Source: Candidatus Nanoarchaeia archaeon (lineage in GTDB: Archaea > Nanobdellota > Nanobdellia > Woesearchaeales > JACPBV01). Taken from it: a stretch of 64,000 nt of DNA. The stretch lies in assembly GCA_028279655.1 (NCBI GenBank), contig JANQNH010000030.1, positions 1 through 64,000 of the forward strand, in the 5' to 3' direction. The position numbers and the translations under genes were made by a program. This document shows positions 5,482 through 34,816 of the stretch, one piece after another; position 1 is the stretch's first letter; every line of letters starts with the position of its first letter. Below the pieces are notes generated by a model. That model had not been told where the DNA came from, made no database searches, and was given only the letters and a program-made list of their open reading frames with translations.

Positions 5482-8400
5482 ATGGATTTTGATGAAGACA
5501 AAGAAGATGAAGAAATAAGCATAGATTTCTCTAAGATTAAAAACCTGTTCGGCAAGAAGAAAAAGAAAGAAGGTGAAGAGTCAGGAGAAAGAGCACAAGA
5601 GAAAAAAGAGGAAGTAAGCCAGGATCATGTAGAACAAAAGACAGAAACACCAAAAGAAGAGAAACAGCCTGAAGAAAATGAACAGAAAGAAAGCGATGAT
5701 GATGAAGATATATCCATAGATTTTAGCAAGATAAAAAATATATTCAAGAAGAAAGAAGGACCAAAGAACGAGGAGAAGAAACAGGATTCCGAAGAAAAGG
5801 AAGACGACGAAGAGATATCCATAGACTTTGGTAGGATAAAGGGATTCTTCAAAGGGTTAAAAGAAAAATCAAAAGACCAGGAAGGAGATGATGAAGAGAT
5901 CTCCATGGATGTTAGAAAGACTGTAGATACCGTTATGAGGCATAGAAGAATATTGGTGCCTGCATTATTGATAATAATAGCATTGTTCTTTAGCATCTCT
6001 ATCAGGATGATGCCTGCATATCTGCCTGCAACAGACAATTGGGCAGAAAGCACAGTGCACAGCCAGATAAGAAATTCTATATATCAACAGGTCAGCCAGC
6101 AATATCCCAATCTTCCTGAAGCTAACAAGGATTCGTTGGTGGATGCTGAGTTTGACAAGGTAAAGAAAGAACAGAAATCCCAGATCGATCAGCAGATAGA
6201 AGCTACATCTAACTTCTTTAAATCCCAGCTACAGGATGATAACGGCCAGACCTATCTCTTGGCTATAGACCCGTATTTCTGGATGAGGCATGCAAAAAAT
6301 GTCCTTGAGAACGGTCACCCTGGAGACAAACTTATAGAAGGAAGACCTTATGACACATTCATGTTTGCTCCTGTTGGAAGGCCCGTGCCTCCAGACATGT
6401 TCCACGCTTATCTGGAAGCTTACCTTTTCAAGTTTCTAAGCATATTCAATAGCAACCTTCATCTTATGACCTTAGCATTCTATATCCCTGTATTGCTGTC
6501 TGCATTGGCTGTTTTCCCTGCTTTCTTCATTGGAAAAAGATTGTCCGGAAACTTTGGAGGTTTCATATCTGCATTTATAATAGCTGTCCATCCTGCCTTC
6601 CTTACAAGAACCGTAGGAGGATTCTCAGATACTGACGCCTATAACGTCTTATTTCCTTTGTTCATCACATGGCTTTTCCTGGAAGGTTTTGAGAGCAAGA
6701 GCAGAAGAAAGACCACCATCTATTCAGTCTTATCAGGTATCACAGTGGGCCTTTTCAGTGCTACATGGGGGGGATGGTTCTATATATTTGATTTCATACT
6801 TTTTTCCTCTGTTGCCTACCTCTTCTATTACATAGCTTTACATAGGGATGAGATAAAAGACTTTAAGGGGTTCATCAAGAAGACTGCTTTCTATAATGCA
6901 TTGATGTCCATCGTAACCTTTGTCATATCCTCTGCAATATTCACATCCATATTCACAAGCTTCACCAATTTTAGAGAAGCTTTCTTTGTTGGGCCACGTG
7001 CATTCGCAAGGCTCAAACAGGTTGCCATAACATCGATATGGCCAAATGTTTATACCACAGTTGCAGAGCAGAATCCAGCCTCCCTTGATTCAGTGATTTC
7101 ACAGATAGGGGTTGGAAGCATCCTTCTTTTCCTGATAGGCCTCACAGGGATAGCCCTGACAATGTTAAGGAAACAATCAAGAAAGAAATCTGACCTTTGG
7201 TTTGCAATAGGATCAGTATTGTGGTTCATGATTATACTGGGCATAAGGCCTCAGAACCTGACATTATTCCTGGCTTTGATAAGCCTCCCAATAATAATAA
7301 GGTTGATCCTCATAATAAAAGAAAAGGACGAAGGGATTGACATTAAGGCAGCCATCCTTCTTATCCTATGGTTTACATCTACTATCTATGCCAGTGTAAA
7401 AGGAGTAAGATTCACTCTGCTAGCTGTGCCTGTTTTCGCTATTGCAGTAGGGGTCACTTTAGGCATCAGTTATTCCTACCTTCACAGGATCATAACACAA
7501 AGTCTCAAGATCAACAAAGAGATATCAAAGATACTTGTTGTAGTATTGTTATCCCTTCTGCTTTTCGGGCCGTACCAGTCTGGCAGGGTAACAGCAAGAA
7601 ACGAGATACCTTCCATGAACGATGCATGGTACAATTCCCTTCAGAAGATAGACCTGGAAGCAGAACCAGATGCGATAATTAATTCCTGGTGGGACTTCGG
7701 GCATTGGTTCAAGATGATCGGCAACAGGGCAGTTACCTTTGACGGAACATCCCAGAACTCCCCTAACGCCCATTGGATAGGATCAACATTATTGACTAAG
7801 GACGAAGACTATGCTGTTGGTGTTCTAAGGATGGTGGACTGCGGGCAGAACAAGGCATTCGAAGAGCTGGATAAGGTTATAGAGGACGGCGCAAAGTCAA
7901 TAGAGATTTTGCATGAGATAGTTAGGTATGACAAGGAAGAGGCAGGTGATGTCCTGCTTGAAAATGGATTAAGCAATGAAGAGACTGAGAAGGTCTTGGA
8001 ATTCACCCATTGCATACCTCCGGAGAATTATTACATAACATCCTATGACATGATCGGTAAATCAGGCGTATGGGCTCATTTCGGGTCATGGAACTTTGAC
8101 AGGTCATTGATCTACAATACGTTAAATAAAAAAGAATATGAAGATGATATAGAAAAAAGCGTTTCCTTCCTTCAGGATAGGTTCAATTATACCAGAGAAG
8201 ATGCAGAGGATATGTACTATGATGTTTTATCAATCAAGGATGATGCAGAAGCAAACTCATGGATAGCACCATGGCCTTCTTATGCAGGATCCAGCGGGTG
8301 TGGAAATGTAGAAGAGAATAAGATTGCCTGCAATATCGGGAATGGAGGCATTGTAGAGATCGACATGCTTACCTTACAGGCAGATATCCAGACACCCCAG

Positions 8401-8853
8401 GGAGTTATGCATCCTGATTCTGTAGTTCTTCCTTTGGAAGACGGTAGCTACCAGAGAAAAGAATTCAATGAAACAATAGGGATAAGCATGGTTTTAGTCC
8501 CAGAAGGAGACGGAGAGTATAGTGCACTGATGATGCATCCAAGGTTAGACAAGTCAATGTTCACAATAATGTTCTATCTGAACGGACATGGTCTTAAGTA
8601 TTTCGAAAAGTTCAGTGACGTAACTGATATAACAGGCGGAAGGATCATAGTATGGAAGGTTGACTGGGAAGGAAATGCAGAAAATTTCCTGGAAGAATTT
8701 GAGCCAGAACCTGTTGAGGAGGAGATTGAAGAAGAGCAAGTGACTGAAGAAGAAACAGAAAACCAATCATCAGAAACAAACGACCAAAAAGAAACAACTC
8801 AAGAGAAAGATAATTCACAAGATATAAATACCACAAATAATTCTAGCGAATAG
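5482..8853 (+). CDS. aglB: Oligosaccharyltransferase AglB/STT3 with acidic repeat extension
   Basis: This 1123-residue protein is an archaeal oligosaccharyltransferase that moves lipid-linked glycan onto Asn-X-Ser/Thr of exported proteins. Residues 1-150 are a cytosolic extension with four variants of a repeat (DEEISIDFSKIK followed by Lys/Glu-rich linkers). The first membrane helix starts near 154. The DPYFWMRHA motif near 263 holds the metal-binding Asp. TVGGFSDTDAYN lies in the multi-helix core. The catalytic-site motif reads WWDFG at 736-740, where WWDYG is usual. The C-terminus is an acidic Glu/Thr/Ser-rich tail. The next gene starts immediately after the TAG. It is the central transferase of this glycan locus. 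Confidence 0.95.
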   Translation: MDFDEDKEDEEISIDFSKIKNLFGKKKKKEGEESGERAQEKKEEVSQDHVEQKTETPKEEKQPEENEQKESDDDEDISIDFSKIKNIFKKKEGPKNEEKKQDSEEKEDDEEISIDFGRIKGFFKGLKEKSKDQEGDDEEISMDVRKTVDTVMRHRRILVPALLIIIALFFSISIRMMPAYLPATDNWAESTVHSQIRNSIYQQVSQQYPNLPEANKDSLVDAEFDKVKKEQKSQIDQQIEATSNFFKSQLQDDNGQTYLLAIDPYFWMRHAKNVLENGHPGDKLIEGRPYDTFMFAPVGRPVPPDMFHAYLEAYLFKFLSIFNSNLHLMTLAFYIPVLLSALAVFPAFFIGKRLSGNFGGFISAFIIAVHPAFLTRTVGGFSDTDAYNVLFPLFITWLFLEGFESKSRRKTTIYSVLSGITVGLFSATWGGWFYIFDFILFSSVAYLFYYIALHRDEIKDFKGFIKKTAFYNALMSIVTFVISSAIFTSIFTSFTNFREAFFVGPRAFARLKQVAITSIWPNVYTTVAEQNPASLDSVISQIGVGSILLFLIGLTGIALTMLRKQSRKKSDLWFAIGSVLWFMIILGIRPQNLTLFLALISLPIIIRLILIIKEKDEGIDIKAAILLILWFTSTIYASVKGVRFTLLAVPVFAIAVGVTLGISYSYLHRIITQSLKINKEISKILVVVLLSLLLFGPYQSGRVTARNEIPSMNDAWYNSLQKIDLEAEPDAIINSWWDFGHWFKMIGNRAVTFDGTSQNSPNAHWIGSTLLTKDEDYAVGVLRMVDCGQNKAFEELDKVIEDGAKSIEILHEIVRYDKEEAGDVLLENGLSNEETEKVLEFTHCIPPENYYITSYDMIGKSGVWAHFGSWNFDRSLIYNTLNKKEYEDDIEKSVSFLQDRFNYTREDAEDMYYDVLSIKDDAEANSWIAPWPSYAGSSGCGNVEENKIACNIGNGGIVEIDMLTLQADIQTPQGVMHPDSVVLPLEDGSYQRKEFNETIGISMVLVPEGDGEYSALMMHPRLDKSMFTIMFYLNGHGLKYFEKFSDVTDITGGRIIVWKVDWEGNAENFLEEFEPEPVEEEIEEEQVTEEETENQSSETNDQKETTQEKDNSQDINTTNNSSE

Positions 8854-9838: not shown

Positions 9839-10981
9839 ATGGGAGTTAGACTCATCAAGTTTGTTGACAGGTTCATTGGAGCCCCATATTGCATAGTCTT
9901 GGGCATTATAAGATTATTCTCAAAAAAAGACATGCCAAAAAGAGAGAACACCAGGAACATATTGATAGTTCAGCTATGGGGCATTGGAGAGACAATACTT
10001 ACTGTTCCTGCGATCAAAGCATTAAGAGAAAGATATCCAAAGACAGCCATAGATATCCTGTGCACCCCAAGGAACAAGGATATCTACTTTAATTACCCGT
10101 TTATCAGCAAGCTCAACGTGGTCAGGCTGAACCTATTCTCACTTAAATGGTTTGTCCTTAAGAACTGGAAGAGATATGATATTGTGATTGACATGGAAGA
10201 ATATCTAAATATCTCTGCCATCATGTCCTTCTATCTGGGAAAGAGGACAATAGGCTATTCTCATGGGACCAGATCCTTAACCTATTCCAGAAAAGTAAAG
10301 TACAACGACAGGCAGCACACCTCAAAGACCTTCTTTGATCTTGTCAAAGCCTTAGGTGTAAGAGGGACCACAGAAAACCTGGAGAAACTGAATTACACAG
10401 GGACTGACAAGAAGATTGTTGATCTGGCATTGAAGTACTCCAGGATTGAAAAAAAGACTTTTCTAGTTGGGATTGCTCCTGGAGCTGCAGAATCATCCAG
10501 ATCAAGGATGTGGCCGCAGGAGAACTTTGCAGAACTGATCCAAAGGATCTATAAGAAGAAGAACTGCAAGATAGTCCTCATAGGAGCCAACCATGAAAGA
10601 AAGCTTAACGAATACATAATTGAGCTGATCAAGGAAAAAAGGATAAGGAGAAACGTGATAAACCTTGCCGGAAAGTTCAACCTAAGGCAGATTTTCTATC
10701 TTATATCAAGATGTAATGTATTGATAGGTAATGATTCAGGCCCTATGCACATAGGAGCAGCCATGAACGTAAAGACGATCGGTCTCTTCGGTCCAAACCT
10801 TCCTGTAAGATTCGGACCCCTAAACAAGAAATCAAAAGCTATATACAAGGACATGCCCTGCTCTCCATGCATAAACGTCCACAAAGGCCAGGTACCGGAA
10901 TGCTTCTATGGAGAAGGATCCAGAGACTACAGAAAGTGCATAAAAGAGATAAAAGTAAAAGATGTTCTTAAGTATGTTTAG
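9839..10981 (+). CDS. GT9 family glycosyltransferase (heptosyltransferase-like)
   Basis: This 380-residue GT-B enzyme fits family GT9, known for ADP-heptose:LPS heptosyltransferases. The N-terminal domain has ILIVQLWGIGETILTVPAIKALRERYP. The C-terminal domain has GIAPGAAESSRSRMWPQENFAEL, a Rossmann strand VLIGANHE, and the nucleotide-sugar segment GNDSGPMHIGAAMNVKTIGLFG. A Cys cluster (CSPCINVHKGQVPEC) near the C-terminus also occurs in many GT9 proteins. With an ADP-heptose pathway encoded from 14016, heptose is the likely donor sugar. The acceptor in an archaeon without LPS is presumably a lipid-linked or surface glycan. The gene follows the DUF2304 gene by 2 nt. Confidence 0.88.
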   Translation: MGVRLIKFVDRFIGAPYCIVLGIIRLFSKKDMPKRENTRNILIVQLWGIGETILTVPAIKALRERYPKTAIDILCTPRNKDIYFNYPFISKLNVVRLNLFSLKWFVLKNWKRYDIVIDMEEYLNISAIMSFYLGKRTIGYSHGTRSLTYSRKVKYNDRQHTSKTFFDLVKALGVRGTTENLEKLNYTGTDKKIVDLALKYSRIEKKTFLVGIAPGAAESSRSRMWPQENFAELIQRIYKKKNCKIVLIGANHERKLNEYIIELIKEKRIRRNVINLAGKFNLRQIFYLISRCNVLIGNDSGPMHIGAAMNVKTIGLFGPNLPVRFGPLNKKSKAIYKDMPCSPCINVHKGQVPECFYGEGSRDYRKCIKEIKVKDVLKYV

Positions 10982-11017: not shown

Positions 11018-11539
11018 ATGAGAAAAACATCATCTATCCATTTTGTCATAACCGGAGGAACTATTGATTCTTTCTATGATGGTACTAAAGACACCGTGGT
11101 ACCAAATAAATCATCAGTCATCCCTAATGTTATCAAAAGTCTAAGATTAGTTAATAAAACCGAATTCACCCAAGTTTGCATGAAAGATAGTAGGGATATA
11201 ACAAAAGCAGATATGAAGAAGATCTTAGCAATAATTGAAGAAAGCCCACATAAGAACATAATAATAACTCATGGGACATATACAATATCTGACACCGCAA
11301 GGTACCTAAAAGCAAACCTAAAGAGAAAGGATCAAACCATAGTGCTAACAGGCTCTTTAATACCAATACTAGGATTCTCTCCATCTGACGGTACTTTCAA
11401 CCTTGGCTATTCTATAGCAAAAGTCCAAGAATTACCAATAGGAATCTATGTGTGTATAAATGGAAAAGACTTCTCCCCAGAAGAAGTAATGAAGATAATC
11501 CAAAAAGGAGAATTTACCTCCATTTTTGAAAAAAATTAA
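11018..11539 (+). CDS. Short asparaginase-fold protein
   Basis: This 173-residue protein corresponds to the N-terminal domain of type I/II L-asparaginases. The nucleophile loop TGGTIDS (residues 12-18) is intact. The second active-site motif reads THGTYTISDTARYL where enzymes have HGTDT, so the catalytic Asp is a Tyr. A TGSLIP segment follows. The C-terminal domain of full-length asparaginases (about 320 residues) is absent. Similar stand-alone domains occur in archaea and bacteria, but I know no proven function. Canonical asparagine hydrolysis is doubtful. It has its own promoter and converges on the gene at 11540 with no spacer. Confidence 0.75.
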   Translation: MRKTSSIHFVITGGTIDSFYDGTKDTVVPNKSSVIPNVIKSLRLVNKTEFTQVCMKDSRDITKADMKKILAIIEESPHKNIIITHGTYTISDTARYLKANLKRKDQTIVLTGSLIPILGFSPSDGTFNLGYSIAKVQELPIGIYVCINGKDFSPEEVMKIIQKGEFTSIFEKN

Positions 11540-12999: not shown

Positions 13000-13749
13000 T
13001 TATCCAAAATGCCTATACTCGCCGTGCGTAAAAAAACCTATCAACTGCTTGATCCTAGCAAGCCTAGGAAACAAGTCCCCCTCTAAACTCTTAACATTAT
13101 CAAACAGCTCAAAAACCTCAGGCTTAAACACATAGATCCCTGCATTCACAACATTGGAAGAAACAGACTTAGGTTTTTCCTGAAAATCAACAATCAAATC
13201 ACCGTCCAGCACAGCATTCCCATACTTGGAAGCCTTCTCGATGCTCATCAGGCCCATAGTACCCAATTTATCAAGCTCAAGATGCTTCTTTATCATCCTG
13301 AGCAAATCAAAATTATTATAGGTATCTCCTGACATAACCACAAAGTTTGTATGCAGCTTATCCCTGACAGATATCAAAGCATCAGCATTACCTTTAACGT
13401 CCTTCTGAACAAGCTTAACAGATATAGGGGCCTTGTCTATCTCTAAAAGTATCTTAGTGGTAGAAGGAGTATGCTGGGTTACGATATACATTGTTTTTAT
13501 ACCGCTGGAAGCAAAGAAATCGATCTGCTGCCTGAGCAAAGATTTTCCCTTTAGCTCCTTAAGCAGATTACCCTGATGCTCTCCCTTGATCAGCAGAACA
13601 GCAACATCGATAGAGCTTTCCTTCAACCCTTTCCTCAGAAAATACTCTACAGCCTGACTACGAGAACGGATTATAGAACCATCAACCTTGCTGTCTATCT
13701 GGTCCAGCAAAGACTTATCAAGAGATATAGCAACCTTAGGTTTCTTCAT
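13000..13749 (-). CDS. Ribbon-helix-helix / degenerate nucleotidyltransferase fusion, putative sugar-nucleotide-sensing regulator
   Basis: Residues 1-45 are a ribbon-helix-helix DNA-binding domain (VAISLDKSLLDQID, then SRSQAVEYFLRKGL). Residues 47-249 follow the fold of sugar-phosphate nucleotidyltransferases: VVMSGDTYNNFD and VNAGIYVFKPEVFEL are clear. The catalytic loop is broken, however. Where enzymes have GGxGTR the protein reads GEHQG, and no clear PK motif follows. I infer a regulator that binds a sugar nucleotide or sugar phosphate instead of making one. Start 13749 is preferred over 13767: it places the ATG about 25 nt from a TATA-like box at 13769-13780 and leaves the operator at 13751-13771 outside the gene. 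It is divergent from the cupin-HldD operon. Confidence 0.8.
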   Translation of the reverse strand: MKKPKVAISLDKSLLDQIDSKVDGSIIRSRSQAVEYFLRKGLKESSIDVAVLLIKGEHQGNLLKELKGKSLLRQQIDFFASSGIKTMYIVTQHTPSTTKILLEIDKAPISVKLVQKDVKGNADALISVRDKLHTNFVVMSGDTYNNFDLLRMIKKHLELDKLGTMGLMSIEKASKYGNAVLDGDLIVDFQEKPKSVSSNVVNAGIYVFKPEVFELFDNVKSLEGDLFPRLARIKQLIGFFTHGEYRHFG

Positions 13750-13750
13750 A

Positions 13751-13771
13751 AAGTATGAACTAAGCATACTT
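13751..13771. promoter_or_regulatory. Operator O1 at the regulator promoter
   Basis: AAGTATG and CATACTT form 7-bp inverted arms separated by 7 nt. The site lies between the TATA-like box (13769-13780, minus) and the start at 13749. The 12-mer AAGTATGAACTA followed 2 nt later by CATAC is repeated at 13978. Autoregulation by the RHH protein is inferred. Confidence 0.65.
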
Positions 13772-13811
13772 ATATAAAAAACTTTGTATTACCTATAAGA
13801 TAGATAAAAAT

Positions 13812-13920
13812 CACAACAAAAATGGCGCAGGCCGACCGGGGGTTGCCCCCTACGGGGTGGTCGATAGGACAAAGCGAACGAAGTGAGTTTTGGCCGTCTG
13901 CTGCCATTATTTTTGTTGTG
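13812..13920 (+). ncRNA. GC-rich structured element B
   Basis: The element lies between the divergent regulator and heptose promoters. Outer arms CACAACAAAAAT and ATTTTTGTTGTG enclose GGCGCAG/CTGCTGCC, then a hairpin CGACC...GGTCG containing GGGGTTGCCCC and CTACGGGG, the linker TAGGAC, a second hairpin with CGAACGAAGTGAG (13875-13887), and CCGTCTGC. This is the same order of parts as in elements C and D. The inner GGGG-TTG-CCCC and CCCC-TAC-GGGG pairings exclude each other, so two folds are possible. Confidence 0.6.
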
Positions 13921-13977
13921 GTTTCTTGAAATATATATAAGAATATAGAAACATTTAAATACTTCCTATACTATACA

Positions 13978-13997
13978 AAGTATGAACTATTCATACC
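13978..13997. promoter_or_regulatory. Operator O2 at the ADP-heptose operon promoter
   Basis: GTATGAA and TTCATAC form 7-bp inverted arms around a 3-nt centre. The site shares AAGTATGAACTA plus CATAC with operator O1. It lies between an AT-rich promoter region (ATTTAAAT near 13952-13960) and ATG 14016, a position where bound repressor would block transcription. Confidence 0.65.
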
Positions 13998-14015: not shown

Positions 14016-15272
14016 ATGACGCAACATAAAGAAGTACAGAAGAAATGGGGGAAAGAATTGTGGATTGCCAACTATGACTACTGCGGTAAATTACTAATTC
14101 TAAACAAAGGATTTAGGTGTTCTATGCATTATCACAAGAACAAAGACGAGACATTCTACATAAATAAAGGAAAGGTATTGATGGAGATAGATAATGAAAA
14201 GAAGATAATGCTCCCAGGAGACTCTGTAAGACTAACACAGGGAATGAAGCATCGCTTTACAGGCTTAGAAAACTCAGAGATAATGGAATTCTCAACACAC
14301 CATGAAGATGAAGATTCTTATAGGGACGAAGTCTCAGGAGAAGTAGACTTAACTAAACTAAATCTCCCAAAAGAAGAGACATGCCTCGTAACAGGAGGGG
14401 CAGGCTTCATAGGATCAAACCTATCTTTAGAACTCGAAAAACAAGGATATAAGGTAATAGTCATAGATAACTTTTCAACAGGAACCAAAGAGAACCTCAA
14501 AGGCTTCAAAGGAGAGATAAGAGAGATAGACGTTTCAAGACCATTTGAGATAAAAGAAAAGATAAACATAATATTCCATCAGGCTGCAATAACAGATCCA
14601 AGATTCAAAGACGACAATGAAATGCTCAGGGCTAATCTGGAAGGCTTCAAGAACATCATACAACTGGCAAAGAAGAACGATGCTAAGTTAATCTACGCAT
14701 CAACAGCAAACCTATATGGAAACGCAAAGACGCCCATGAAAGAAGACCAGGAAAAAGAGATAATAACAACCTACGGTAAATCAAAGCTGGAGATGGACAA
14801 CATAGCAGAACAACTTAAGGATCAGATGCATATAGTAGGGCTTAGATACTTCAATGTTTTTGGGCCTAGAGAGAGCTTCAAAGGAAGAGCAGCCTCCATG
14901 ATATTGCACCTAAGCAGCCAGATGAAAGAGAACAAAAAGCCAAGATTGTTCAAGCATGGAGAGCAAAAGAGAGACCACATATATGTAAAAGATGTTGTCC
15001 AAGCAACAATAAAAGCCACTGAAGCAAAATCAGGTATATACAATGTAGGAACAGGAATAGCAACAAGCTTCAACGAACTTATAAATATACTAAACGAGAT
15101 CCTAAAGAAGGATCTCCATCCAGAATACTTTGATAATCCATATAATTTAAAAACCTATCAGAGTAACACACAGGCAGACACCAGCCTTGCAGAACAGAAC
15201 CTGAGATGGAAAGCAAGATACACATTAAAGCAGGGCATAAAAGATTATATGGGATGGTTAGAGAATGAATGA
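14016..15272 (+). CDS. hldD: Cupin / ADP-heptose 6-epimerase fusion (HldD-like)
   Basis: Residues 10-100 are a cupin, with the HYHKNKDETFYINKG metal-binding motif at 38-52. Residues 122-418 are an extended SDR epimerase: NAD-binding GGAGFIG near 127, and Tyr/Lys of YGKSK at about 254-258. The C-terminal TYQSNTQADTS followed by IKDYMGWL matches the segment that marks HldD, which converts ADP-D-glycero- to ADP-L-glycero-beta-D-manno-heptose. The following genes encode HldE kinase, GmhB and HldE adenylyltransferase, which supports the call. The cupin fusion is unusual; it could be a sugar isomerase or a regulatory domain. It is the first gene of a five-gene overlapping operon under operator O2. 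Confidence 0.85.
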   Translation: MTQHKEVQKKWGKELWIANYDYCGKLLILNKGFRCSMHYHKNKDETFYINKGKVLMEIDNEKKIMLPGDSVRLTQGMKHRFTGLENSEIMEFSTHHEDEDSYRDEVSGEVDLTKLNLPKEETCLVTGGAGFIGSNLSLELEKQGYKVIVIDNFSTGTKENLKGFKGEIREIDVSRPFEIKEKINIIFHQAAITDPRFKDDNEMLRANLEGFKNIIQLAKKNDAKLIYASTANLYGNAKTPMKEDQEKEIITTYGKSKLEMDNIAEQLKDQMHIVGLRYFNVFGPRESFKGRAASMILHLSSQMKENKKPRLFKHGEQKRDHIYVKDVVQATIKATEAKSGIYNVGTGIATSFNELINILNEILKKDLHPEYFDNPYNLKTYQSNTQADTSLAEQNLRWKARYTLKQGIKDYMGWLENE

Positions 15273-16188
15273 GATAATTGAAAGGTTCAAGGAAAAGAAC
15301 ATCCTCATTGTAGGAGACATAATGCTTGATAAATATATCTTCGGCAAAGTAGACAGGATAAGTCCTGAAGCCCCTGTACAGGTTGTTGAGGTAAAGAAAG
15401 AGAACTATGTTCCTGGAGGGGCAGCAAACGTAGCTAACAACATTGCAGCATTGAATGCAAAAGCCTTCATGGTAGGTATTGTAGGAAACGACAAGGAGGC
15501 AGACATCCTGTTAGAAGAGCTGAACAAGAGAAACATCAACACAGAAGGGATAGTAAAAGACGTACAGAAGCCAACTACACAAAAGGTAAGGATCCTAGGC
15601 CAGAAACAGCAGCTGTTGAGGATAGACTATGAAAAAAAGGATTACCTAAACAAGGAGACAGAAAACCAGATCCTAAACTTCATAAAGATAAGGATACCGA
15701 ACACAGACGCTATAATAATCTCAGACTATGCAAAAGGCGTGATCACACAAAACCTCATCAAAGAGATAAAAGACATTGCAAAAGAAAAGATAATGATCGT
15801 TGATCCAAAACCAAAACACAAGGATTTTTATAAAGGAGCAACCTTGATAACCCCTAATCTAAAGGAAGCAGAACAGATGACAGAAAAGGAAGAGGACCTG
15901 ATAAAAGAGCTTGACTCCCCCATATTGATCACAAAGGGAGAGAAAGGCATGTCCCTTTACGAAAAAGACGGCACCATTACAAACATCCCTACAAAAGCAA
16001 AAGAGGTATATGATGTCTCAGGAGCAGGGGACACAGTAGTTGCAACATTGGCACTGGCATTATCATCAAAAGCATCTTTAAGGCAGGCTGCAACATTGGC
16101 CAATCACGCAGCAGGAATAACCGTAGGAAAACTAGGGACATCAACAATAACAACAGAGGAGATTAAGAAAAGCATAGAAAATGAATAA
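15265..16188 (+). CDS. hldE1: D-glycero-beta-D-manno-heptose-7-phosphate kinase (HldE N-domain type)
   Basis: This 307-residue PfkB-family kinase matches the kinase half of HldE/RfaE: VGDIMLDKYIFGKVDRISPEAPVQVVEV at the N-terminus, PGGAANVANNIAAL, the middle TPNLKEAE, and the catalytic DVSGAGDTV near residue 251-259. It would phosphorylate heptose 7-phosphate at C1 to give the beta-1,7-bisphosphate. In enterobacteria this domain is fused to the adenylyltransferase; here that half is a separate gene at 17090. It overlaps the epimerase gene by 8 nt and the phosphatase gene by 8 nt. Confidence 0.92.
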   Translation: MNEIIERFKEKNILIVGDIMLDKYIFGKVDRISPEAPVQVVEVKKENYVPGGAANVANNIAALNAKAFMVGIVGNDKEADILLEELNKRNINTEGIVKDVQKPTTQKVRILGQKQQLLRIDYEKKDYLNKETENQILNFIKIRIPNTDAIIISDYAKGVITQNLIKEIKDIAKEKIMIVDPKPKHKDFYKGATLITPNLKEAEQMTEKEEDLIKELDSPILITKGEKGMSLYEKDGTITNIPTKAKEVYDVSGAGDTVVATLALALSSKASLRQAATLANHAAGITVGKLGTSTITTEEIKKSIENE

Positions 16189-16717
16189 GGTTGTATTTCT
16201 TGATAGGGACGGGGTTCTAAATGAGGACACATATTACCCCCATAAGATAGAGGATTTTATACTCCTGCCAAAAGTTCCAGAAGCCCTAACCCTGCTAAAA
16301 GACAAGTTCAAGTTCATAATAATAACAAACCAGTCAGGCATAGGAAGAGGATACTTCACCAAAGATGATTTCGACAACTTCAACAACCACCTCATTAAAA
16401 CACTTGCAGAACACAACATCAAGGTAGAAAAGACATATGTCTGTCCGCACACAAAAGAGGAAAACTGTGACTGCAGGAAGCCAAACATCAAGTTCATAAA
16501 GCAAGCAGCGAAAGAGTTTGATATAGACCTGCAAAGTTCGTTTATGATCGGAGACCATCCCTATGATATGGACTTAGGGAAAAACGCAGGTATAAGGACA
16601 GTATTCATGCTGACAGGTCACGGAATGAAACACAGAGAGGAGATGAAAGGAAAGCCTGATTTCACAGCAAAAAACCTTTTAGAGGCAGCACGATGGATAA
16701 TAGGCCAAACTTCATAA
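16181..16717 (+). CDS. gmhB: D-glycero-D-manno-heptose-1,7-bisphosphate 7-phosphatase
   Basis: This 178-residue HAD hydrolase fits GmhB: DRDGVLN with the nucleophile Asp near residue 8-12, TNQSGIGRG, the zinc-binding CPHTKEENCDCRKPN loop, and the IGDHPYDMDLGKNAG motif. It removes the 7-phosphate from heptose 1,7-bisphosphate. It sits between the heptose kinase and, after a GtrA gene, the adenylyltransferase, so it completes the ADP-heptose route. A paralogue lies at 32511 in the second heptose cluster. The gene overlaps its neighbours on both sides. Confidence 0.93.
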   Translation: MNKVVFLDRDGVLNEDTYYPHKIEDFILLPKVPEALTLLKDKFKFIIITNQSGIGRGYFTKDDFDNFNNHLIKTLAEHNIKVEKTYVCPHTKEENCDCRKPNIKFIKQAAKEFDIDLQSSFMIGDHPYDMDLGKNAGIRTVFMLTGHGMKHREEMKGKPDFTAKNLLEAARWIIGQTS

Positions 16718-17097
16718 AAAGGGCAGTTAAGAAGCATACGAAGAAATTCTCACTATTCATGGTAGTTGGCATCATAAAGACAATATTATCGATCCTGCTT
16801 ACCGGACTATTTATAGATATACTGAAACTGGATGCATTGTTCAGCTCAACAGCTGTTGTAGTGATTGTATTCTTCATCACTTATATGATCTATGTATCCA
16901 CTAAACTTGTAAAGCCGCAGTTCATGAAATACACGTCTGCAACAATAGGATTCAACATAGCCACCATCCTGCTGATCTGGATCCTGGTTGATTATGTGGG
17001 TCTTTCCGGTTTCATAAGCTCCGCCATAGTAACAATAACCTCCTTTGTGCTGAGATATCTGTTCTTCAATATAATCGGGCTGATACGCCATGGATAA
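16693..17097 (+). CDS. GtrA-like membrane protein
   Basis: This 134-residue protein has four membrane helices starting near residues 22, 50, 78 and 104, in the layout of GtrA (PF04138) proteins thought to help move polyprenyl-phosphate-linked sugars across the membrane. The N-terminus is basic (FIKRAVKKHTKKF). It overlaps gmhB by 25 nt and the adenylyltransferase gene by 8 nt, so its translation is tied to the heptose genes. It resembles the GtrA protein at 29797, including the closing FNIIGLI segment. Flipping of a lipid-linked heptose is a guess from context. Confidence 0.8.
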   Translation: MDNRPNFIKRAVKKHTKKFSLFMVVGIIKTILSILLTGLFIDILKLDALFSSTAVVVIVFFITYMIYVSTKLVKPQFMKYTSATIGFNIATILLIWILVDYVGLSGFISSAIVTITSFVLRYLFFNIIGLIRHG

Positions 17098-17557
17098 GAT
17101 AAAGACAAGAGAAGAGATAGAGGATATAGCCAGACAGTCAAGGCAACAAGGAAAGAAGATAGTCACCTGCAACGGTTGCTTTGATATCCTGCATGCAGGT
17201 CATATCAAATTTCTGAGGGAAGCAAAGGCGCAGGGAGAAATCCTTATTGTAGCCATCAACTCAGATTCCAGTGTAAAGCAGAACAAAGGACCGCAAAGGC
17301 CGATAAACTCTGAACAAGAAAGAGCAGAAGTTCTCGAAGCACTGGAGATGATTGACTACGTAACAATTTTCAACGAAGAAACACCCATAGAACTGCTGGA
17401 AGCTATAAAGCCGCACATCCATGCCAACGGAGAAGAGTATGGGGAGGACTGCATAGAAGCCCCAACAATAAAAAAGAATGGCGGAAAGATACACATCATA
17501 AAGCTCAAACAAGGTTACTCTACAACAAACATAATAGAGAAGATTTCTAAAGATTGA
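17090..17557 (+). CDS. hldE2: Heptose-1-phosphate adenylyltransferase (HldE C-domain type)
   Basis: This 155-residue cytidylyltransferase-fold protein has CNGCFDILHAGHIKFLREAK with the HxGH nucleotide-binding motif, a VAINSDSSVKQNKGPQRPI segment and the C-terminal KLKQGYSTTNIIEKI that marks RfaE2/HldE adenylyltransferases. It would join ATP and heptose 1-phosphate into ADP-heptose. It closes the operon that begins with cupin-HldD. The protein has the normal length for the free-standing domain. Related enzymes use glycerol-3-phosphate or ethanolamine phosphate, but the closing motif and the neighbours favour heptose. Confidence 0.92.
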   Translation: MDKIKTREEIEDIARQSRQQGKKIVTCNGCFDILHAGHIKFLREAKAQGEILIVAINSDSSVKQNKGPQRPINSEQERAEVLEALEMIDYVTIFNEETPIELLEAIKPHIHANGEEYGEDCIEAPTIKKNGGKIHIIKLKQGYSTTNIIEKISKD

Positions 17558-17691: not shown

Positions 17692-17804
17692 GAAAAAGTC
17701 CAGCCATGGCGCAGACGAGCCAGGGGTTGTCCCTTACGGGGTGGCTCGTAGGGCAGAATGCAAAGCATTCTGACCGTCTGCCGCCATGACTGGATGGACT
17801 TTTT
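17692..17804 (+). ncRNA. GC-rich structured element C
   Basis: Arms GAAAAAGTCCA and TGGACTTTTTC, then CATGGC/GCCATG and GCAGACG/CGTCTGC, form the closing stem. It encloses CGAGCCA/TGGCTCG around GGGGTTGTCCCTTACGGGG, the linker TAGGG, a perfect hairpin CAGAATGC-AAA-GCATTCTG, and CCGTCTGC. Its core aligns with element B (ATGGCGCAG, GGGGTTG, TACGGGGTGG, TAGG, CCGTCTGC). Elements D and C fill most of the 310-nt space 17558-17867. Confidence 0.62.
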
Positions 17805-34186: not shown

Positions 34187-34816
34187 ATGGAAGAACTAAA
34201 AGCTGACCAGGAAACAAATAAGGATTATCTTGATAACTATATGAAAGAGGTTATGGATATAGCCAATAGTATAGACAAGGAACAGATAGACAAGGCAATT
34301 GACATACTGTTCCAGGCATGGAAGAAAAAGAACCACGTCTATCTCATGGGCTGTGGAGGCAGCGCATCAACTGCATCCCATTTCGCAGCAGACCTCTCAA
34401 AGACAACCTTAAGCCCTGGAAAGAAAAGGTTCAGGGCCATAAGCCTGGTAGACAATACCCCGTGCGTCTCTGCATGGACCAATGACGAAGGATGGGAGTC
34501 AGTCTTCCAGGGACAGATAGAGAACTTCATGGAACCAGGAGACGTCATAATAGGATTTAGCGTCCATGGAGGAAGCGGAAAAGGAAATGCAGGAGCATGG
34601 TCCCAGAACATGACCAAAGCCATGCAGTATGTAAAGGACAATGGAGGGAAATGCATAGGCATAGCAGGCTTTGATGGAGGCGCTTTCAAAGAACTGTGTG
34701 ATGCATGTATCGTTGTCCCTAAAAATTCAACACCTCTGGTTGAAGGATTCCACGGAGATATCCAGCACATGATCATATTCAGGCTGAAACATCTTATTCA
34801 AAGCAGCAGCGAATAG
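34187..34816 (+). CDS. gmhA: Sedoheptulose-7-phosphate isomerase (GmhA-like SIS protein)
   Basis: This 209-residue SIS-domain protein has GCGGSASTASHFAADLSK near residue 56-73, TNDEGWESVFQGQIENFMEPGDVIIGFSVHGGSG and the C-terminal GDIQHMIIFRLKH, all matching GmhA, which converts sedoheptulose 7-phosphate to D-glycero-D-manno-heptose 7-phosphate. GmhA is the shared first step of both heptose routes, and this is the only copy here. A ribosome site AGGGGG lies just before the start. Transaldolase follows. Confidence 0.9.
   Translation: MEELKADQETNKDYLDNYMKEVMDIANSIDKEQIDKAIDILFQAWKKKNHVYLMGCGGSASTASHFAADLSKTTLSPGKKRFRAISLVDNTPCVSAWTNDEGWESVFQGQIENFMEPGDVIIGFSVHGGSGKGNAGAWSQNMTKAMQYVKDNGGKCIGIAGFDGGAFKELCDACIVVPKNSTPLVEGFHGDIQHMIIFRLKHLIQSSSE

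Follow-up and report, generated by a model that had tools for sequence, protein, structure and literature searches.

An RHH protein with a degenerate nucleotidyltransferase domain as a candidate repressor of a nucleotide-heptose operon in a DPANN archaeon

To our knowledge, gene regulation in DPANN archaea that have not been cultured is almost entirely unexplored, and sugar-nucleotide sensors acting at the promoter level are poorly known in archaea. Among the RHH one-component repressors, the ligand-binding parts of NikR (ACT-like domain, nickel) and MetJ (S-adenosylmethionine) are unrelated to nucleotidyltransferases. Two other described proteins are also close to the case reported here. In PutA, an RHH domain at the N-terminus precedes a metabolic enzyme on the same chain, and the protein autogenously represses its own pathway (PMC5293562). 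GMPPA is a degenerate nucleotidyltransferase that takes up the pathway product, GDP-mannose, as a ligand and exerts feedback control (PMC11228364).

In the window, that is, the whole stretch of 64,000 nucleotides analysed, an RHH domain and a nucleotidyltransferase fold were found on a single protein of 249 aa, encoded on the minus strand at 13000-13749. This protein is probably a one-component repressor of the neighbouring heptose operon, with its dead nucleotidyltransferase domain as the sensor of a late pathway intermediate.

Domains and catalytic residues of the 13000-13749 protein

The protein consists of an RHH segment (residues 1-46) and a nucleotidyltransferase-fold domain (residues 47-249), and stops at residue 249, immediately past the fold. 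As its start, ATG 13749 was preferred to the in-frame upstream ATG 13767, because the latter falls within the operator-like palindrome at 13753-13769. By Pfam profile search, PF00483 scored 78.3 bits over residues 66-217, where 21.2 is the cut-off, and 27/27 orthologues matched it as well. RHH_1 matched residues 7-42 with 18.2 bits, slightly below the Pfam cut-off of 20.5, and was matched by 5/27 orthologues at E up to 0.01. AlphaFold2, supplied with 27 window/locus sequences (mean pLDDT 80, pTM 0.74; residues 175-197 poorly modelled), predicted RHH helices at 12-21 and 30-44 and a nucleotidyltransferase fold with a Rossmann-like core. The RHH beta strand was absent from this monomer model and would form on dimerisation. 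The two helices of the model and a segment conserved among orthologues (KIAIS-D-SLL-DSKVDGS-IRSRSQAIE) place these approximately 45 residues in the RHH superfamily (MetJ/Arc/CopG).

The sequence-only reading had described an RHH domain fused to a broken nucleotidyltransferase, and this description is borne out by the PF00483 match, the predicted helices and fold, and about 50 orthologues in Woesearchaeota-type DPANN archaea. The orthologues, 47-70% identical to the 13000-13749 protein, keep the fusion, the broken loop and the sugar-binding side of the pocket. A sequencing error or a pseudogene was rejected, since the broken loop is common to all of these and purifying conservation is clear. 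The fold motifs pointed out in that reading lie at 140-148 (SGDTYNNFD) and 201-208 (VNAGIYVF). The replacement of GGxGTR also holds, with KGEHQ standing there instead, in a register slightly different from that first given.

In the alignment, K55-G56-E57-H58-Q59 corresponds to G-G-x-G-T, and the following PxK segment, bearing the Lys, is deleted. Across 41 aligned orthologues the loop reads mostly K-G-E-H-Q-x; 41/41 are without the signature Thr and without the PxK Lys, no Arg was found at the signature Arg position among the residues shown, and the second metal Asp is replaced by His in 39/41. The first metal Asp, the EK pair and the N-A-G sugar contact are retained in 40-41 of the 41. The combination that marks an active sugar-1-phosphate nucleotidyltransferase, GGxGTR...PK plus two metal Asp residues, is thus absent from the 13000-13749 protein, and the proposed loss of catalysis is strongly supported by the signature residues.

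Foldseek and profile searches agreed on the nearest solved structures, GDP-mannose pyrophosphorylase VTC1/GMPPB and its inactive partner GMPPA, and the presence of an inactive regulatory subunit among these relatives counts in favour of a sensor. We mapped the pocket onto VTC1 via alignments and the contacts given in PMC9168903, in which Thr12, Arg13 and Lys23 hold pyrophosphate/citrate, Asp219 holds the metal, and Gly85, Tyr145, Gly146, Glu162, Asn173 and Glu195 hold mannose and the guanine edge. The equivalents of T12, R13, K23 and D219 are lost, and equivalents of the GDP-mannose contacts are retained (G120, D142, Y176, G177, E191, N202 and E223), the sugar-side residues being near-invariant across orthologues. 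This pattern fits a protein that would bind a sugar nucleotide or sugar phosphate and be unable to do the chemistry.

If the protein were still an enzyme, a divergent heptose-pathway nucleotidyltransferase with an RHH domain for autoregulation only, the good PF00483 score, the retained first metal ligand and EK pair, and the catalytically intact appearance of relatives with the same RHH (clade B, below) would be accounted for. Such an enzyme is very improbable in view of the Thr, Lys and Asp losses counted above; furthermore, adenylyl transfer has an enzyme of its own in the operon, HldE2, and the operator is found on the heptose operon, not solely on the regulator gene.

The heptose operon and its promoter palindrome

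Divergent to the regulator gene is a plus-strand operon for nucleotide-heptose synthesis. Its first gene (14016-15272) encodes a cupin domain plus ADP-glyceromanno-heptose 6-epimerase (HldD, TIGR02197), followed by D-glycero-beta-D-manno-heptose-7-phosphate kinase (HldE domain I, HldE1; 15265-16188, TIGR02198), a GmhB-like heptose-bisphosphate phosphatase (HAD-IIIA; 16181-16717), a GtrA/DPMS-like membrane protein (16693-17097) and heptose-1-phosphate adenylyltransferase (HldE domain II, HldE2; 17090-17557, TIGR02199). The assignments of HldD, HldE1 and HldE2 passed the NCBIfam equivalog cut-offs. A GmhA-like SIS-domain isomerase for the first step of the pathway is located further along the window (34187-34816, plus strand). 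On the other side of the regulator, a GT9 heptosyltransferase-like gene (9839-10981, plus strand), a GT2 gene and an STT3/AglB-like oligosaccharyltransferase gene (5482-8853, plus strand) form a neighbourhood that recurs in relatives. Divergent homologues of HldE1 and HldE2 were detected within 5.5 kb in 26/27 loci with enough flank, and hldE1 was present in 25/25 genomes with an orthologue of the regulator versus 8/43 without. Because of the heptose genes and the recurring GT9, GT2 and STT3/AglB genes, the most likely destination of the nucleotide-activated manno-heptose made by the pathway is a glycan, either N-linked or on the surface. Judging from known sugar chemistry, a manno-configured heptose fits the descent of the regulator from a mannose-binding nucleotidyltransferase.

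The operon begins with the cupin fusion at 14016-15272 here and with GmhA in several relatives (L178, L180, L182, L049); this genome keeps GmhA at 34187, and the cupin may be an alternative isomerase. Also observed in the window was a stand-alone N-terminal asparaginase domain of 173 aa (11018-11539, PF00710), which is without the C-terminal half.

Between the 13000-13749 gene and the divergent operon lies a 17-bp palindrome, GTATGAAnnnTTCATAC. The exact copy, putative target operator 2 (GTATGAACTATTCATAC, 13980-13996), is the sole one in the 2.07-Mb assembly, and is located 20 bp past the TATA-like TTTAAATA (13954-13961) and 19 bp ahead of ATG 14016. The putative autoregulatory operator 1 (GTATGAACTAAGCATAC, 13753-13769), a D6 repeat pair with 2 mismatches to the consensus, sits between a TATA-like box (about 13770-13779, minus strand) and ATG 13749. 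Within the window alone, the motif at 3 mismatches was not significant, and the case therefore rests on comparison across relatives. A large regulon was rejected from the single exact site in the genome, and a known RNA element from the absence of any Rfam match in the region between the two genes.

The two operators are divided by a GC-rich hairpin of about 120 bp (13808-13924) with near-perfect terminal inverted repeats and a DNA folding z-score of -5.6, and it makes their spacing wider than in relatives. The element is MITE-like, without Rfam match; 14 copies or fragments were found in the genome, together with a related stretch near 17706.

By de novo counting of gapped palindromes, GTATGA-N5-TCATAC was detected upstream of 30/40 members of clade A, as we designate the 13000-13749 protein and its orthologues, the shuffle maximum being 2. 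The 15.2 kb of DNA upstream of orthologues contained 28 copies of the exact 17-mer, versus 2 in 402.6 kb elsewhere (p about 2e-38), and both of the latter copies belong to the same system, one just past the 350-bp limit (L022) and the other before GmhA (L049). Counted by genome, the exact site was present in 15/25 with an orthologue versus 0/42 without (p about 1e-8), with one site in each of the 15 except G227, which has two at two contig ends. It was missing from the other 10 of the 25, some of which have variants with 1-2 mismatches; at L008, L021 and L046 no site within 2 mismatches was found upstream of the regulator gene. Where the regulator is not directly adjacent to the operon, being on contig C61 in G022, 25 kb away in G248 and separated by two genes at L049, the palindrome immediately precedes the GmhA or HldE1 gene of the heptose operon. 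Among the relatives compared, the site usually lies 5-25 bp past a TATA-like box and shortly ahead of the start codon. A chance AT-rich repeat was rejected from shuffles, the backward-pattern control and the genomes without regulator. Repeated or palindromic half-sites of the RHH type are therefore present at these promoters as candidate operators.

The link between palindrome and RHH protein is one of sequence association only, and the palindrome could in principle belong to a different regulator, the RHH protein being merely a neighbour. This is most doubtful, however: among the 42 genomes without orthologue or site, 7 possess hldE1 (p about 0.008), indicating that the site goes with the regulator and not just with the pathway, and the TCATAC half-site occurs as direct repeats upstream of paralogous RHH fusions, thus tracking the RHH domain across paralogues. 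The earlier proposal of a DNA-binding regulator linked to nucleotide-heptose synthesis gains strong support from this comparison, as the palindrome tracks regulator and heptose operon even where these are unlinked. The 13000-13749 protein very likely controls the heptose-making genes.

Proposed mechanism and the wider RHH-nucleotidyltransferase family

We propose that the RHH domain dimerises, forming a homodimeric repressor, and would bind the palindrome just past the TATA box of the divergent operon, thereby blocking transcription initiation. Repression is the likely mode because the palindrome sits just downstream of the TATA box; the protein may instead be an activator. Under repression, binding to the related repeats at its own start codon (13753-13769) would give autoregulation. 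The C-terminal domain, in which the pyrophosphate/triphosphate loop is gone, as is the second metal ligand, and the sugar side of the pocket remains, would most likely bind a late intermediate, ADP-heptose or heptose-1-phosphate, with a change in DNA affinity. Most simply, the ligand would be a co-repressor, giving feedback control of heptose supply to glycans. The product of HldE is beta-anomeric ADP-heptose, while GDP-mannose enzymes bind the alpha-anomer, and the ligand could therefore differ.

The same fusion was found in other genomes, and it is not a single odd fusion, since the protein represents one clade of a wider family. A search of 59 relatives and of 237 genomes of the phylum found RHH-nucleotidyltransferase fusions across the whole order, and also in further families of the same class. 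In the tree, whose bootstrap had yet to converge fully, clade B (38 rows), with intact motifs, is apart from one degenerate clade (60 rows, 100/95 support) composed of clades A, C and D. Inspection of the ORF table by eye, with representatives confirmed by Pfam, indicated that a phosphomannomutase/phosphoglucomutase gene comes next after many of the clade B genes, that several clade B genes are divergent to fructose-bisphosphatase or phosphofructokinase genes, and that clade C genes are mostly divergent to UDP-glucose/GDP-mannose dehydrogenase.

The rigid palindrome was not found upstream of the paralogue clades, where direct repeats of the same half-site occur. Exact TCATAC-N4-TCATAC was detected 10 times upstream of 27 clade B genes; elsewhere, 168 kb contained 2 copies, and the highest count among shuffles was 1. 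Homologues with intact motifs and no linked operator had been named as evidence against a regulator; intact homologues exist, but 16/27 carry a tandem TCATAC putative operator of their own within 1 mismatch, so that this objection does not apply.

A second RHH-nucleotidyltransferase of the same genome (L082, contig C30:179887-180681) has an intact GGKGTRLRPLT...PK signature, is divergent to a phosphofructokinase gene and has TCATAT/TCATAC repeats upstream; from its sequence, it may be an enzyme-repressor. Clade C (L100, L101, L114, L118, L119 and relatives) is degenerate, has also lost the sugar-contact residues, and has TCnTAC repeats at 10-11 bp spacing. Clade D (L083, L110) is even more degraded; its genes diverge from one for an aminotransferase or an epimerase, and half-sites of the TCCTAC type recur upstream of them. 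The frames of L088 and L005 diverge at the 3' end, possibly by assembly effects.

The chances are about even that these fusions constitute a regulator family of Nanobdellota (DPANN) with a nucleotidyltransferase sensor, B being intact and A, C and D pseudoenzymes on separate sugar-nucleotide pathways, with TCnTAC half-sites in common and a series leading from enzyme through enzyme-repressor to dedicated sugar-nucleotide-sensing repressor. The pathways would be heptose (A), UDP-glucose/GDP-mannose dehydrogenase (C) and aminosugar or epimerase genes (D), and the half-sites would be rearranged between palindrome and direct repeats. Clade B proteins encoded beside phosphomannomutase may be true enzyme-repressors.

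The main rival to a sensor is a heptose-operon repressor without small-molecule sensing, in which the dead domain serves only for oligomerisation or for binding another protein, for example an enzyme of the pathway. It would suit the loss of the catalytic loop in every orthologue, the known oligomerisation of nucleotidyltransferases of the same fold, and the independence of the DNA-binding evidence from any ligand. We consider it rather unlikely, because the sugar-side pocket has stayed near-invariant among orthologues of such low identity, and degenerate clade C has lost those residues, from which it follows that the fold does not require them. A sensor of a late heptose intermediate is preferred.

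Comparison with known systems

If this reading is correct, the locus brings together a specific protein, its operator, the operon under control and a class of candidate ligands, each of which is open to test in vitro, and the family displays, with intermediates still extant, a natural series of steps by which a biosynthetic enzyme turns into a transcription factor. Should ADP-heptose prove to be the ligand, a biosensor for this widely interesting metabolite could be made from the domain.

The protein resembles NikR and MetJ in the combination of RHH and a putative ligand site and in candidate operators that are palindromic or tandem. Of the weak matches to the RHH part NikR is the best, the nikR model scoring 20 versus a cut-off of 175 over residues 5-47 only, and its C-terminal nickel-binding ACT-like domain is absent from the 13000-13749 protein. 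With the PF00483 sugar-1-phosphate nucleotidyltransferases GMPPB, RmlA and HddC the protein shares the fold, the EKP and NAG motifs and the first metal Asp; it differs in lacking GGxGTR...PK, the second metal Asp and the C-terminal beta-helix, and in the extra RHH.

PutA is alike in carrying RHH on a metabolic-enzyme fold and in controlling its own pathway, as proposed here. It differs in being catalytically active and sensing redox/proline, whereas the present protein is archaeal, its nucleotidyltransferase is without catalytic residues, and PF00483 alone follows the RHH, in place of a proline dehydrogenase. GMPPA, the non-catalytic paralogue of GDP-mannose pyrophosphorylase GMPPB, belongs to the same family as the C-terminal domain; it acts allosterically on an enzyme and has a left-handed beta-helix domain, whereas the 13000-13749 protein has RHH and appears to act on transcription. 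No published account of an RHH-nucleotidyltransferase regulator was found in the open-access literature, the scope of the search. PutA, with RHH on an enzyme, and GMPPA, with a dead nucleotidyltransferase as product sensor, are thus the apparent precedents for a design whose combination of the two seems new in that literature.
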